Source: Sistotremastrum niveocremeum HHB9708 (Eukaryota > Basidiomycota > Agaricomycetes > Sistotremastrales > Sistotremastraceae). Taken from it: DNA of 64,000 nucleotides. How positions within the stretch are numbered: position 1 is the stretch's first letter; each line of letters begins with the position of its first letter. The translations under genes were made by a program, and so were the position numbers. Below the pieces are notes generated by a model. That model searched no databases. It saw nothing but the letters and a program-made list of their open reading frames with translations, and was not told where the DNA came from. The stretch spans positions 110,724-174,723 of the forward strand of contig KV419425.1 in the NCBI GenBank assembly GCA_001630475.1, in the 5' to 3' direction. Of the stretch, positions 19,561-26,270 are shown one piece after another.

Positions 19561-20822
19561 TCACTCAATGGGAATCTCCCCGCTTTCCATTCTAATCCTC
19601 TCGAGCGTAGAATCAAGCAAAGCCTCCTTCCACCCAATGCCTCTATCACCCACAACATCACTAATACTCTCTTTCGTCTGAATGACTATCTGTGGATAAA
19701 CGCTGAACGTCTTCAGCCGTCTTTGTAGCGTCAAGTCTTTGATGACATGATCGACAGGACGGCTGTAAGCGAGGTCTGGCGAGCGGGCATGGCGGATGAG
19801 ACGCCTCACTCCGGTCGAAGAGACTGCATAGGCATGCGTGCAGAGAGTGTGATACATCGGCCGAAGTGCAACGGACCCTGGTAGAGGCTGATTCTCGTAT
19901 TCCGCCGACCAACAGTGCCCTGGCAAATGCGATGATCAACAAGGATATGAAGGTAAGTAGGAAAAGACTTACCGAGCATTACAACATCCCAATCTTTAGG
20001 AAGGGCGGGCCACATCCTGAGAATCCTCTTCTCAATATCAAACTCCATATCAATATCGTCCTCAAAGATGATAGCGACTTTGTCTCCATTTTCGACTATC
20101 TTCCTCCAAAGTCTCGCATGGGAATCCCAACACCCGATCATAGCATTCGTCAAGGCGACATTCTTATACGCATCATTGAAACCGATAGTTGACATGATCA
20201 TCTTCTTGTCTCTCGTCGACGGCAGAGGATGGCTCGCTTCCCAAACTGGATCCGGAGGGTCTAATGTCCAATAATCAGAGCCTGCTATGACGAGAGAATT
20301 ATTGAGTGGATTGAGCTGATTAACGATGACGTCGCTTGACCATTGGAAGGGGTAGGCGTCGAAGATGACTTCAGGATGCGATTCGGTATCAGCTTCCGGC
20401 CAGTCGGCGGGTTCAGCCTCTCGGTCATCAATCCTCCCCCTCTGCCATTTAACGCGATCCATGATCTTAGCGACGCGTTCAGAATGATGATCCGTGCCTT
20501 CGAAGTAGGTGAAAGTGATGTCCAGTGCTCGTGCAATCTTGTCCATCAACTCTCGACGGTCTATTCGTTTTGGAAGGGTTATGAGATACACGTTATCCGC
20601 GACTCCCAGAGTTTTGGAATGCGGCCGAGTGTCGGTGGACCGTATAGCACTAATTCGTGCACGATATTCTTCATCTTCGTTAATGTGAGTGGTCGAGCCA
20701 TTAGCGGCGACCGGGGTGGCATATCGTGCTGCCGTCGAAAGCGACGAAATAAGAGTGATGAATAGGACGACGATGAGAAGCGAAAGGATGAGAATTTTGC
20801 GGCTGCCGCCACATCTCAGCAT
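19561..20822 (-). CDS. GT25-type membrane glycosyltransferase, 402 aa
   Basis: Two exons (20822-19973, 19919-19561) are joined in phase over a 53-nt intron. Residues about 10-32 are a single hydrophobic segment (ILILSLLIVVLFITLISSL) after a short basic N-terminus, so it is a type II membrane protein, probably in the Golgi. The catalytic domain shows the GT25 (LPS biosynthesis/collagen galactosyltransferase) motifs: VYLITLPKRIDRRELM near residue 80, AMIGCWDSHARLWRKI, and the acidic metal-binding motif IIFEDDIDM. The length is normal for the fungal family. Sugar donor and acceptor are unknown. Confidence 0.85.
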
Positions 20823-21780
20823 TGGTGTGGCGGCCTGAAGGAACTAGCCTGCAACGCGCTGGTCTGAAGACTGGGTCTTGACTGCGAGTCGTCGACTCCT
20901 CGAGCGCTGGAACATCGCCAAGCTATCGGCGGTTTCCGGGTTGTCTTACGCGTACTTTTCACGTCGCAATGCTTGTCGACATCTACTGTTGCTGGTCGAG
21001 CTCTGACGCTGAATATGAAAATGATTATTGGCCCTGGCAAACGCCTATACCTCAACGGACGCCGTGCCTGACGATTTCTAGACTTTTTCGGACAGGTTTC
21101 TTACCCAGGACCTCAAACGTCCTAAGATCAAGAAAGGTACGCATAGTTCAAGGGCATTCTGGATCTCAAACGCACTTGATATGAGCTCATCTAAGTCCCC
21201 CCAGACTACAACGGCGTCATAAGAGACGTTTTGACTTTTCGGAGAAGTCTAAAACGTGACGCCTGCCTCCTTTATCCTTTAGACGCCGGTACTCCCACGA
21301 GCGTGTCAGACCATGCAAAAGCAATTTCTTCCAGGCCCGACATCTTGTTGTGCGGTCGTAGAGTGCAGATCATTCGGAGAAATTGGCTCTCTATCTCTTA
21401 TCTATGTTATCAGTAACGGCAAAGTAACGGTCCCATGACATCCCTACAGCGGCGAACTCTATCCAGTTTCGATGCCAGCACCTTGCAACGTTCATGCAAA
21501 ACCTCCTTTTGGCCGCTCCTCATGCTCATCGTCCCTGCTCCCATTTCGGGCTCTTCCAGATACCCTTTCGTTGCCTCTGCTGGGCTGGTTTCCCTGAACA
21601 GCGAGCGATCCATGTAATGGGGATCGTCGATGCACGAATCGCATCGCATCGTCAACTCCTTTTATTGTTCATGCGATCACTCCAGCAGCAATAAACAATA
21701 ATTATCGAGAATTTTCTGGTCCTGAAATAGACCAGGCTTTTATCACGCTCGGCATCGTGACTCTGAATAGGAGCTTCAAG
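20823..21780. other. No clear gene
   Basis: Upstream of the glycosyltransferase (-) and of the first small peptide gene (+). Only short open frames without motifs. Confidence 0.45.
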
Positions 21781-21788
21781 GATATATA
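21781..21788 (+). promoter_or_regulatory. TATA box of peptide gene 1
   Basis: gatatata 57-64 bp before the ATG at 21845. Sister genes have TATA-like boxes at similar distances. Confidence 0.45.
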
Positions 21789-21844
21789 CTGCCCTCCAAG
21801 TCTACTTCCTGCAGCGCCACCAACTTCGATTCCCCTCGACGACG

Positions 21845-22006
21845 ATGTGGGCGTTACCAATGAAGACGATCATCCTTACTCTTGCTTGCTTGGCTTCCCG
21901 TCAAGTCTTAGCCAATCCGGAACCAATCTGTTGTCCATGCGTGAATGGACGTCCGATAGGTGGAACATGCATTGCAGCCGAGGGTTGTTGTCCACCTCCT
22001 GGTTGA
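21845..22006 (+). CDS. Secreted six-Cys micropeptide 1, 53 aa
   Basis: A single-exon frame. Residues 1-23 form a signal peptide (hydrophobic IILTLACLA core, cleavage probably after VLA). The mature part of about 30 residues starts NPEP and holds CCPC, a lone C and CC: pattern CC-x-C-x9-C-x5-CC, rich in Pro and Gly. A second ATG at 21860 would shorten the signal peptide to a more usual form. It is the first of four related genes in a row with about 600-bp spacing. Three disulfides could form. No known family is recognised; possible roles include effector, antimicrobial peptide or cell-surface signal, none shown by the sequence. Confidence 0.72.
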   Translation: MWALPMKTIILTLACLASRQVLANPEPICCPCVNGRPIGGTCIAAEGCCPPPG

Positions 22007-22385
22007 GCACCTCGTAAGTCGTCAAAGTTATCGTCGACGCTATTTATTCAAGCTGTGATTTAAGTTATATTTCTTCGGCTTTGAGCGATTGCTGGAGAAT
22101 ATGGTATCATACTCCAATGTTATAGTATACGACATACAGAGCGTGATGTGCTTGTACTGCAAAGTTATGTGCATTGGTGTCGAAAAATTGGTTCTCCCGT
22201 TGTCCCACACGGATTATCGACGGTCTACGTCAGTCCACACGATTTCAAGGGGCCAAGTCTCGATCTTACTCCGGTGTACTTGAAGCGCTGACGATCACAA
22301 CTCAATACAATCAAATGTTTCTATCTCTTATCTGTTGAGCAAATGCGGTTTGGGACTACCAGCTTTTCATTGCTCCAGCGCATAT

Positions 22386-22397
22386 GATATATAAATA
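22386..22397 (+). promoter_or_regulatory. TATA box of peptide gene 2
   Basis: gatatataaata 53-64 bp before the ATG at 22450; the best TATA match in the array. Confidence 0.55.
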
Positions 22398-22449
22398 GAT
22401 GCATCAGTAGGAGTGTCGGGCATTTCAAACTACCAGTCTCACGACCATC

Positions 22450-22617
22450 ATGAGAGGCCATATCCAAACCCTCGTTCTCTTCGTCGTCGTCGGCCTTTCC
22501 GCTATGCAGGTTCTCGCGAGCCCTGAGCCGGTCCCCCCTTGCTGCGCGTGCGATGCCAATGGGATCCCTATCAGTTCTAGTAAATTTTGCAGCAGCAGCT
22601 TCACACCCTGCTGTTAG
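22450..22617 (+). CDS. Secreted six-Cys micropeptide 2, 55 aa
   Basis: Single exon. Residues 1-24 are a clear signal peptide (TLVLFVVVGLSAMQVLA). The mature peptide starts SPEPVPP, then has CCAC, C and terminal CC: pattern CC-x-C-x12-C-x6-CC, with the stop right after the last cysteine. The PEP tripeptide before the first cysteines is shared with peptide 1. It follows peptide 1 at 605 bp on the same strand, so the two probably arose by tandem duplication. Function unknown. Confidence 0.75.
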   Translation: MRGHIQTLVLFVVVGLSAMQVLASPEPVPPCCACDANGIPISSSKFCSSSFTPCC

Positions 22618-23064
22618 GCATTGACAAGTTTGATCTAACAAGGTGCGGCCTGAAATCGCTATAAGGACCTTTGTTGGAATAGAAATAACGCTTCGTAACA
22701 GCAACCCCAGCTTTTTTGCTTCTCGACTTTTGTGGATGGTTCAAGAAGACATTTCGGGAGTCCCGGGCGTGAGATCATGCAGGGCTCAGGACCCGTTTTG
22801 ATGCTTGGATTACCGGATTCGTTTGTACAATTGCAATGTGGATAGATCTGTAACTTTCGACCCGCATTCACGCCGCTAAAGCCTCAAGCATCCGTTTATC
22901 GTCACTACATACTCCATGAGACTCTTGACCGTTGTATGCCTCGAGATACACGTTTGTCGGATGGGAACCTCCCACCTTTCGGTTATTTAAACGGTCAAAG
23001 TGGGTCAAGCTCAGGCCGCAGACGCGTCCCCGACCCCATTAGTTTGATCGCCCTAAGTCGTCTC

Positions 23065-23212
23065 ATGGAGTTCATCTCTCTCTCCTTCGTATATGTCCTT
23101 GTCCTGGCGTACACAGTACATGCCAGCGCTATCACCCCGAAGCTGTTGCAAGTGTATCGACGATGTCCATCCTAAGACCTGCCCGCTCCTCCCGTGCTGC
23201 CCAGATCCATAA
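23065..23212 (+). pseudogene. Third peptide copy, apparently disrupted
   Basis: A signal-peptide-like frame (MEFISLSFVYVLVLAYTVHA) begins 615 bp after peptide gene 2, and a motif of the array type (CC-x-C-x8-C-x4-CC) follows directly, but the two are not in the same reading frame. The copy therefore looks broken. It keeps the position, strand and cysteine spacing of its neighbours, with a TATA-like ttatttaa at about 22983. A sequencing error is an alternative explanation. Confidence 0.5.
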
Positions 23213-23577
23213 AGTACGAATTCGTTCAGACATCGTTACTGTTTTTGGTCACTGATTAGGCCTGCTCTCAGTAATAATAGAGCTAATTCCCTGAGCCGAC
23301 GCGGATGGATTGCTGGATGAGATGTAGAGCTGTTATGGAGCGATAGGGTTTAACCAGTAGTCCAAATGAGATGTACTGGGTGTACTCGAAGCCGGTGGGA
23401 GTAGCGTACCTTCTGTGAGTCCTATCCGGCAGTTGGAGGAGCTCGTGGTTCATGAAGCTCATGGTTAGGCACTCTTGTCCGCTTTAGAAAATGATCGCGT
23501 GGAATATCTTCTAGTCATAGAATGGCCGTATTGATATCCCAGTCCCGGGATTTTGGTTTCCTCGCAGTATATAGTTC

Positions 23578-23584
23578 TTCAGTT
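23578..23584 (+). promoter_or_regulatory. TATA box of peptide gene 4
   Basis: tatatag 68-74 bp before the ATG at 23652. Confidence 0.4.
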
Positions 23585-23651
23585 TGCCAGTGTACCGCTC
23601 AAGAATATCGTCTCATCCCGACGGTATACGTCCCTACAGTTGCCAAGAAAC

Positions 23652-23807
23652 ATGTGGTCCAGTCTTAAAGCGCTAATGGCGGGCATAGCTATCTTCATGA
23701 CTGTTGGGACAGTTAATGCGAATCCCGCGGCGTTGTGTTGTCCATGTGGCCCGAGTAAAACACCATGTTTTGGTCCAGTGCCTTGCTGTGGTGCTCCTCC
23801 GCCCTAG
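23652..23807 (+). CDS. Secreted six-Cys micropeptide 4, 51 aa
   Basis: Single exon. The signal peptide (ALMAGIAIFMTVGTVNA) is followed by a mature peptide NPAALCCPC, C and PCC, pattern CC-x-C-x6-C-x5-CC, ending GAPPP. It lies 587 bp after the third copy on the same strand. NP at the mature start and the CCPC block match peptide 1 closely. Function unknown. Confidence 0.75.
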   Translation: MWSSLKALMAGIAIFMTVGTVNANPAALCCPCGPSKTPCFGPVPCCGAPPP

Positions 23808-24473
23808 AAAAATGCGCCTCTGACAGAAATGAGTCTCTGACTGTCAGTGTTTCTCAATTGATCCGGTAAAAGAGATGTACTGAAATTGACAAACTGTTGG
23901 ACCAGTGACGAGTCGCTGAAATGAACGCACCTTCTGATCCAATGTTCGGTATGATTGGGGTTCCAATGATGCTGTACTATGACAATGCTGTATATATATC
24001 AAAAGCGTGGAGAACCTGCGTCAGTTCGAGTTCTGAAAGCCGTTCGAGTTCTTTGGTCACTGGCAAACACTTCGCGTTTGGATGCTGCGAAAACTCGATG
24101 AGGTCCTATATGTAAGGATGCACAAAATTATCTTGAGGAGGCTATTTGGGGTGCTAGGGTTTCCTCGCATCTGTCGTTGTCGACGACGTGCTCGACACTC
24201 AAGTAAGGAAAGATGACAGTTGGGTAAAGACAGCGGTGATAACGGCGATGTAGCTGGCCAGGTTGCAATGAAATCACGCTCTTGTTCGGCGCCTCGGCGG
24301 GGGATTTTCTGCGTGACGGAAGCTGTGACGAGTGACGTGACCCGCACTTCCTGCTTCTGTGGCTTCCGTTCCAACCTGAGACAAGTCAGTGGTTTGCTGT
24401 CTGTGATCTGGCGAACTCTTTATACTTTTCATAACTTTATTCCTCTTGATTTCAAATTGATCACGCCACGACA
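23808..24473. other. Intergenic, no gene
   Basis: Separates the peptide array from the intact MYND/pRiA4b gene. Only short open frames. Confidence 0.5.
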
Positions 24474-26270
24474 ATGCCGCGCAATCGCTTGGATCGACCC
24501 AAATTCGTTCAACTCCATCCCGACGACGACGGTTTCAAGCTGGACCCAGTCTTCTATGGAGGTATCCAGAACATCTAACTTTTCCTTTTCCCGAAAGCTC
24601 AAAATTTGTATAGATCCTAAAGATTTTGTTCCCAAGCTGAACGTCTATGGTGAAGCTTTTGGCTGGGGTTTAAGGCCACACGATTCGTACGAAGATGTGG
24701 ACATTTCGCGGATTATGGGTCGAGTGGTGCGTACATCCAAGGCCTGAATCTTTCTGAGACTAAACATTGAAAATGCAACGCAGCAATATTCCCAGATGAT
24801 CTACGACAGGTGGGAGCCTGGCCCTCCAGAAAATCAGTTCGTAAACGCACTTGCAAAGAAAAAGGTTCGTTATCGACTGTCGGTTACTCAACTCTTAAAC
24901 TGTTGATCATAGTCAGAAGCATTGTTCAAAGTGGACATTGAGGGGCTTTGCCACTGTGACTATATCCTGAACATCGTCATGCCGTTCGTATCCATACCCT
25001 TTGCCCTCACTCCCTTATCAATCTCATCTGACTGATGCAGCGAGATTCCGTCAGAATACAAACCCTGGTCTTTCATTGAAAAGCATGAGGGACGAGGTGC
25101 ACTGGGACCTAATCTGATCAGTCGACGCTGCAAGGTGTCGGGTGGCATTAATCTCGACACCTTTCAAGACAAAGTCCTTCAACCCTTGATGGGATGGTAC
25201 GCAAGCAAATCACGCGTGGCTTTCCCTTCATTTCACACATCTGGTACAGGGATCGTAATTCGCATGCCTTTGTCTTCACCGATCTCAGCGACGGCGCGTC
25301 CTTTGGACCCAGGGTGAGTGATTTACCTTCACGCGAACTTCTTCCTCTCATATCGAAAAGGGATGTTCAACCATAGATATGATGTACAGAAATGGAGTAT
25401 GCTATGAGTTTCTTCCTGCAGATGACTATGTATTAGCACATCTCGCACGAAAAAAGGGAGATGTGTTCGAATACTTTTATGACTTTGGCGATCACTGGTA
25501 TCACAGAATCGAGGTCAGGATTATCATTTTTCCCTTCGCTGTGCTGATCTCACGTTGTGGGCGTTTTCATTAGGTTGAAGAGATTATCCCTCGCGATCAA
25601 AGCGATGGGGCTGTGGTAGTCCTAGGGGGAAATGCTATGTGTCCGCCTGAAAATGCTCGTGGAAATAGGTACGCGCAGAACTGCCGAAGAGTCACAATCT
25701 CACAACTTGTCACAGGATATGGGCTAGTAAAATGTATGAGTATTATCACGGTTCATCTCGTGAAAAGGCGGCAGCTCTGCAGATGATGGACGATGCTCCA
25801 AATTATCAAGCGAAGTACCCATACGGACCTCCTAACGGTGTATACGACCTTCTCCACTTCTCAATCGAGGAATGCCAGGACGATATCGCCAAAGCCTTGT
25901 CCTCTCATGCCTCGGTCCGCACAGGGGGAAAAGGCTACGTTCATCAGTTCAACCCCACTGAGGGCCCGCCTACTTTACCGCTGAAGCGGGGTCAAACCCT
26001 GTCGAAGACCTTCAACGCTGATTCAGATCCGATGGCGCCGAGTTACATGCAGGAAACCATCTCGAACCGTCGAGATAGGACACAGGTTGCTATTTGTGCG
26101 ACCTGTGGGACGCCGCATGAATTGAAAGCATGCTCGAGATGTAGGAAGGTTTGGTATTGTGGACCTGAACACCAGAAGTAAGTGTTCCCTCAGTGTTGCA
26201 TATATTCGATTCTCAGACGATCCCAAGGAAGCATTGGCGGACTCATAAACCTAGTTGCAAGTCCTCGTGA
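24474..26270 (+). CDS. MYND finger protein with pRiA4b ORF3-like domain, 441 aa
   Basis: Ten exons keep one frame: 24474-24561, 24614-24726, 24784-24864, 24913-24983, 25041-25196, 25250-25313, 25361-25513, 25574-25668, 25716-26177 and 26228-26270. The middle shows a pRiA4b ORF-3-like domain: DYILNIVMP, VLQPLMGW, DRNSHAFVF, then LAHLARKKGDVFEYFYDFGD followed by WYHRIE. The C-terminus is a MYND zinc finger, CATCGTPHELKACSRCRKVW then YCGPEHQKKHWRTHKPSC, where a His stands in place of one usual Cys. MYND fingers bind proteins; the pRiA4b fold was first noted in plasmid proteins and its role is unclear. The acceptor of exon 7 (AAAAG before GGATGT) is supported by the decayed paralog at 15382-17302, which aligns there (STVDIS/STIDMM). 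Confidence 0.88.

Follow-up and report, generated by a model that had tools for sequence, protein, structure and literature searches.

A family of short, secreted-looking, cysteine-rich peptides on one contig of Sistotremastrum niveocremeum

The DNA analysed here, which we call the window, is a stretch of 64,000 nucleotides from Sistotremastrum niveocremeum HHB9708, equivalent to positions 110724-174723 of contig KV419425.1 (C32) in an assembly of 34.7 Mb and 111 contigs. On its plus strand lie four short loci (P1 to P4) whose starts and spacings (605, 615 and 587 bases) were exactly those given in an earlier note on this DNA, as were the cysteine pattern, with its variable loop lengths, and the disruption of the third copy. 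The four-copy array that the note described was therefore found, but it was incomplete, since two loci on the minus strand of the window (P5 and P7, with starts 837 bases apart) and one outside the window (P6) had been missed. In total seven loci, one of them broken, are spread across about 105 kb of the contig (Table 1).

Table 1. Positions of the peptide loci, their upstream elements and the second family (window coordinates unless a contig is named)
Feature	Position	Strand	Description
TATATA before P1	21783..21788	+	62 bases upstream of ATG
P1	21845..22006	+	53 aa precursor; predicted signal 23 aa; mature part ~30 aa; CC-x1-C-x9-C-x5-CC
TATATA before P2	22388..22393	+	62 bases upstream of ATG
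P2	22450..22617	+	55 aa precursor; mature part ~32 aa; CC-x1-C-x12-C-x6-CC
TATTTAA before P3	22984..22990	+	81 bases upstream of ATG
P3, signal half	23065..23175	+	Broken copy; ATG at 23065, stop at 23175; frame of ORF 22936-23175
P3, cysteine half	23144..23212	+	Other frame; CC-x1-C-x7-C-x4-CC core at 23144-23200
TATATA before P4	23568..23573	+	84 bases upstream of ATG
P4	23652..23807	+	51 aa precursor; mature part ~28 aa; CC-x1-C-x6-C-x5-CC
P5	42639..42800	-	53 aa precursor; mature part ~29 aa; CC-x1-C-x8-C-x5-CC
P7	43455..43637	-	60 aa precursor; eight cysteines, C-x2-CC-x9-C-x3-CC-x1-CC
TATAAA before P7	43709..43714	-	77 bases upstream of ATG
P6	C32:48787-48942	-	62 kb before the window; two residues between second and third Cys
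C38 family, locus regions	C38:268900-270200; C38:135300-285950		

The intact copies need no intron, each being a short frame with a signal-like start followed by a cysteine-rich mature part; within the array three loci (P1, P2 and P4) encode intact precursors, which range from 51 to 55 residues. The predicted mature parts are 28-32 residues long and have six cysteines arranged as CC-C-C-CC, except in P7, where 37 residues carry eight. Signal peptides were predicted by eye together with a simple rule on hydrophobicity and small residues, and the borders between signal and mature parts were set by eye. In P3 the signal half and the cysteine half lie in separate frames. We rejected an intron as the cause, because the sole fitting GT-AG pair (at least 40 nt apart) would delete almost all of the signal peptide; from the sequence, an error in sequencing cannot be distinguished from real decay. 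Two side observations concern its neighbours. The splice-donor consensus GTAAGT occurs at window positions 22014-22019, seven bases past the stop codon of P1, and perhaps marks an intron in the 3' untranslated region, while antisense to P2 there is a bare open frame of 127 residues (window 22321-22704, minus strand).

Several scans bear on whether such short frames could arise by chance. The core CC-x-C-x(3-20)-C-x(3-10)-CC occurred five times in the six frames of the window (P1 to P5), compared with none in 100 first-order Markov windows. Across C32:1-254500 a slightly wider strict core recovered the same five places only, and a looser core revealed P6, among other matches in frames unlike the family; in C32:254501-304500 this looser pattern gave two matches, neither resembling the family. 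These pattern scans thus covered the first 304500 of the 424879 positions of the contig, 12,372 of the bases read being N. When the 304.5 kb were scanned for short open reading frames with a signal-like start and a cysteine-rich remainder, the six hits were P1, P2, P4, P5, P6 and P7, compared with 2, 0, 1, 0, 1, 3, 0 and 1 hits (mean 1.0) in eight 300-kb second-order Markov sequences. A laxer scan, run without a control, gave eight hits, namely the same six and two unlike the family. P7 alone would be within the control yield; its position beside P5, with a chance of about 4% by rough estimate, and the TATAAA at -77 speak for it, although its membership of the family is weaker than that of the others.

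TATA-like elements precede six of the seven loci, at -62, -62, -81, -84, -77 and -77 for P1, P2, P3, P4, P6 and P7, respectively, while P5 has none nearer than -202. The earlier note had placed such boxes before all four loci of the array, at a distance of about 55-80 bases. A random 36-base zone of the contig holds a TATA-like start in 5.5% of cases and TATAWA in 1.4%, so that the binomial probabilities are 2e-7 for TATA-like elements in six of seven loci and 1e-8 for TATAWA in five of seven, values to be read with the knowledge that the zone was chosen after the positions had been seen. The frames moreover stay open despite silent sites that are at or near saturation. Judged from the sequence, the loci look like real genes, with a cysteine pattern far beyond chance.

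Kinship was assessed for all 15 pairings among the six intact copies by keeping the cysteines fixed and shuffling signal and mature parts separately, 1000 times. Under this segment-wise test P1-P2, P1-P6 and P4-P6 resembled each other beyond the cysteines, none of the 1000 shuffles being as good. P1-P4, P2-P5, P2-P7 and P5-P7 stood at 38-42 in 1000 and the remaining eight pairs at 64-819 in 1000; no pair that included P5 or P7 fell below 38 in 1000 with the cysteines fixed, and these two copies fit the family less well. Plain shuffles were more permissive (10 of 15 pairs beat all 1000). A gene family of short, secreted-looking, cysteine-rich peptides, as previously claimed, is borne out, with three pairs alike beyond their cysteines.

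Searches of the whole genome (34.7 Mb) added little to the family. With P1 as query the only other matches were P6 (E 0.0185) and P2 (E 0.0329). Queries with P2, P4, P5, P6, P7 and the cysteine half of P3 returned no other member, the P3 half finding only itself, and the P4 query missed even P1, so single-protein genome searches cannot count the family. A match to P6 on C12 (E 0.04) contains an internal stop, and the cysteine-pattern scan of that locus was empty; we took it as chance.

The proposed origin of the array by tandem duplication is supported in part. It agrees with the three pairs that are alike beyond their cysteines, but the other 12 of the 15 pairs fall short of this. In 20 comparisons of the 300 bases on either side of P1, P2, P4, P5 and P6, the flanking DNA showed no clear similarity, z never exceeding 2.2. 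Coding DNA, compared in the ten pairs of these five copies, gave z values from -0.1 to 4.1 (0.1 for P1-P2, no better than shuffled sequence), and a repeat search of window positions 20500-25500 found short weak families only, one of them within the coding DNA of P1 and P4. Since the flanks show no clear likeness and the coding DNA is only somewhat alike, the duplications are old, and recent tandem duplication cannot be read from the even spacing. The best protein partner of P4 is P6, about 85 kb away, so that the array is one old section of a family that extends beyond it.

The same age bears on selection. In all ten pairs of five intact copies pS (0.67-1.04) exceeded pN (0.39-0.59), with the alignment uncertain between the cysteines, and pS was at least 0.75 in seven of them. 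Because silent sites have reached or approach saturation and the alignment is uncertain, dN/dS is uninformative. The diversifying selection inferred in the earlier note is not supported, as paralogues of this age, with pS near or at its ceiling and above pN throughout, could not reveal it, and its fast evolution likewise lacks support. What signal can be read from these alignments points to constraint, and the loops between the cysteines may simply be free to drift.

The earlier note did not recognise the cysteine pattern as that of a named family, and our searches gave the peptides no name either. In Pfam, P1, P2, P4, P5, P6 and P7 all scored below the cut-offs, and NCBIfam gave nothing at its cut-off; known families in these two collections were rejected because the only matches (E 0.23 and 0.14) lay far under the cut-offs. 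A profile of five copies compared with 177635 distinct solved chain sequences found none at E ≤ 1. Two word-based alignment searches of 5.8 billion proteins yielded one and two candidates, none at E ≤ 10. That collection does contain proteins of Sistotremastrum suecicum, yet absence from it is weak evidence, because shared words of five residues are needed and genes of 50 codons may be unannotated. In the literature, a CC-C-C-CC peptide family in a fungus was not described among the matches listed, a set to which subscription journals mostly do not belong.

The peptides were compared with several well-known groups. Metallothioneins are cytosolic proteins whose reduced cysteines bind metal; the signal-like start of the window peptides would speak against a place among them. 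Hydrophobins, whose cysteine order is C-CC-C-C-CC-C, were rejected because five of the six intact copies have six cysteines in the mature part and P7 has a different order; no hydrophobin match appeared for P1, P2, P4 and P5 at E ≤ 1 or for P6 and P7 at E ≤ 0.1. Hydrophobins are likewise secreted and cysteine-rich, with two CC doublets, and are described as often multigene in basidiomycetes (PMC3879219), but in the species covered by one report they are about 90-150 residues long and carry eight cysteines (PMC7827705).

The order CC-C-C-CC, found in P1, P2, P4, P5 and P6 and not in P7, also occurs in animals. In M-superfamily conotoxins a signal peptide is followed by a mature part that is short and variable, and theta-defensins are cyclic peptides of primates, made by a different route. 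Most M-superfamily conotoxins share this order as framework III (PMC4278219; PMC5522442), but conotoxin superfamilies are described as being defined by the signal peptide (PMC4278219), and for theta-defensins the cysteine spacing is also given as CC-C-C-CC, with a symmetric connectivity (PMC5522442). Order alone does not make a peptide a conotoxin: the M superfamily is an animal venom family to which the window peptides are alike in cysteine order only, while in the fungal peptides one or two residues separate the second cysteine from the third and 6-12 more precede the next. Common descent across kingdoms would be very unlikely and we do not claim it. The St-CRPs of the ascidian Synoicum turgens also have CC-C-C-CC, are neutral and were without relatives according to their authors, who report moderate antibacterial activity; unlike the window peptides they are animal peptides of 18-19 residues with an amidated C terminus (PMC13208793).

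Among fungal proteins the comparison is one of kind. Small secreted proteins of fungi are defined in one account as having fewer than 300 residues and a signal peptide, and the majority are there described as orphan genes (PMC7105643); the window peptides, with 51-60 residues and a signal predicted by the simple rule, fall within this definition. The small secreted protein Ssp1 of Pleurotus ostreatus, which is reported as multicopy in many of the fungi where it occurs, and orphan small secreted proteins at large are similarly short, with a signal peptide, no known domain and several copies (PMC7105643). The window peptides are unlike them in having only 51-60 residues with CC-C-C-CC, and the two were likened by description alone. 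As sequence, then, the family is real, old and without a name that we found, and its kind is familiar, unnamed secreted peptides being common in fungi.

The chemistry of the peptides narrows what they might do. In all six intact copies the mature part has a net charge between -1 and +1 and an even number of cysteines; mature parts contain 4-9 prolines and about 20% cysteine. The near-neutral charge counts against a cationic, membrane-active peptide, and a defensin-like cationic antimicrobial peptide was rejected on the lack of a clear positive charge in any of these copies. An AlphaFold2 model was of low confidence (mean pLDDT 68.3, pTM 0.31).

We consider it fairly probable that the loci encode secreted micropeptides rich in disulfides, forming an old family that is perhaps specific to this lineage and that would act as follows. 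The precursor would enter the secretory path and its signal would be removed a little ahead of the first cysteine pair; probably three disulfides would then form, and a compact product would be released. Being almost uncharged, this product would bind a specific target outside the cell rather than disrupt membranes, which is the weakest step of the proposal. The most likely use would be competition with, or defence against, organisms around the fungus. Sistotremastrum, which is placed in Sistotremastrales, is a genus that lives on wood; among the matches listed, some of the literature naming it concerned deadwood or wood-inhabiting fungi and some only mentioned it, and the host fungus is probably wood-dwelling. 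For the role of the peptides we would put competition or defence first and self-signalling second.

Self-signalling, in which the peptides would regulate the development or metabolism of the fungus itself, has a precedent in a saprotroph, as this is what has been proposed for Ssp1 (PMC7105643), and neutral peptides suit receptor binding. We nevertheless think it somewhat unlikely, as a hormone whose receptor is conserved would be less expected to come in greatly diverged copies, one of them broken and another with eight cysteines. Improbable, in our judgement, is an effector-like action on a living partner (a plant root, an alga or an animal) during a biotrophic phase: the peptides are small, cysteine-rich, orphan and clustered, and cysteine-rich small secreted proteins are called effectors in accounts of host-associated fungi, but no host is known for this fungus, and the same accounts describe small orphan secreted proteins as common in saprotrophs too (PMC7105643; PMC4759460). 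The high cysteine content with CC and C-x-C, together with the high proline, would also suit metal-binding or wall-associated peptides whose cysteines are free or cross-linking rather than paired in three internal disulfides; we hold this to be quite improbable, given a signal peptide that would route them through the oxidising secretory path and the even cysteine count in every intact copy. That the loci are chance open frames and not genes, as their shortness and the lack of a database match might suggest, is highly improbable in view of a core pattern absent from every control window, TATA elements at set positions and likeness outside the cysteines in copies whose silent sites have reached or approach saturation.

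If the preferred reading of secreted, disulfide-rich micropeptides holds, the family would be of wider interest. Genes this short readily escape notice in fungi, and a fixed CC-C-C-CC core with free loops would lend itself to easy synthesis and be a possible source of stable bioactive peptides. A second family came to light when C-V-N-G-x-P, a stretch common to P1 and P6, was searched in the genome as a 17-place pattern, giving eight matches compared with six for the reversed control. Besides P1 and P6 there were six others, five of them unlike such a frame when read by eye; the sixth, on contig C38, led to a different family with at least nine loci at C38:135.7-285.8 kb. Its cysteine-rich stretch, C-x3-C-x2-CC-x8-C-x(5-8)-C-x3-C, is present in eight of the nine, with R in place of the last cysteine in the other. 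In all nine a signal-like stretch running from an ATG lies upstream of the cysteine part, either in a different frame or beyond an apparent intron, and the genes apparently have two exons each.

The C38 family had no Pfam match at E ≤ 1, and three matches to CP12 proteins among solved chains (E 0.42-0.78 over 11 residues) were taken as chance. Its profile showed no relation to that of the window family, built without P7 (probability 1.1%, E 0.05 over 7 columns). Both families consist of short, secreted-looking, cysteine-rich peptides clustered on one contig; the C38 family differs in its apparent two exons and its cysteine framework. It lends weight to the view that this genome has micropeptide clusters confined to single contigs. 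As a second, larger family with a different framework, it also hints that entire classes of such genes may go unnoticed in corticioid fungi. More speculatively, several such clusters with differing frameworks (at least seven loci on C32 and at least nine on C38) could form a modular, cone-snail-like chemical arsenal that evolved independently and was perhaps missed by annotation owing to the shortness of its genes, a possibility that we rate as unlikely.

The contig offers some further observations. A run of N (C32:108320-110723) stops at the base just before the window start, and a second occupies C32:233397-243364. The array is adjoined by a gene with a Pfam match to Glyco_transf_25 (window 19806-20822, minus strand), whose product is 77% identical over its full length to a protein of S. 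suecicum, which points to a basidiomycete in or close to that genus. Relatives of this glycosyltransferase family 25-like gene are few: of 3476 candidates, 19 proteins reached E ≤ 0.001, and two of these are named as S. suecicum.
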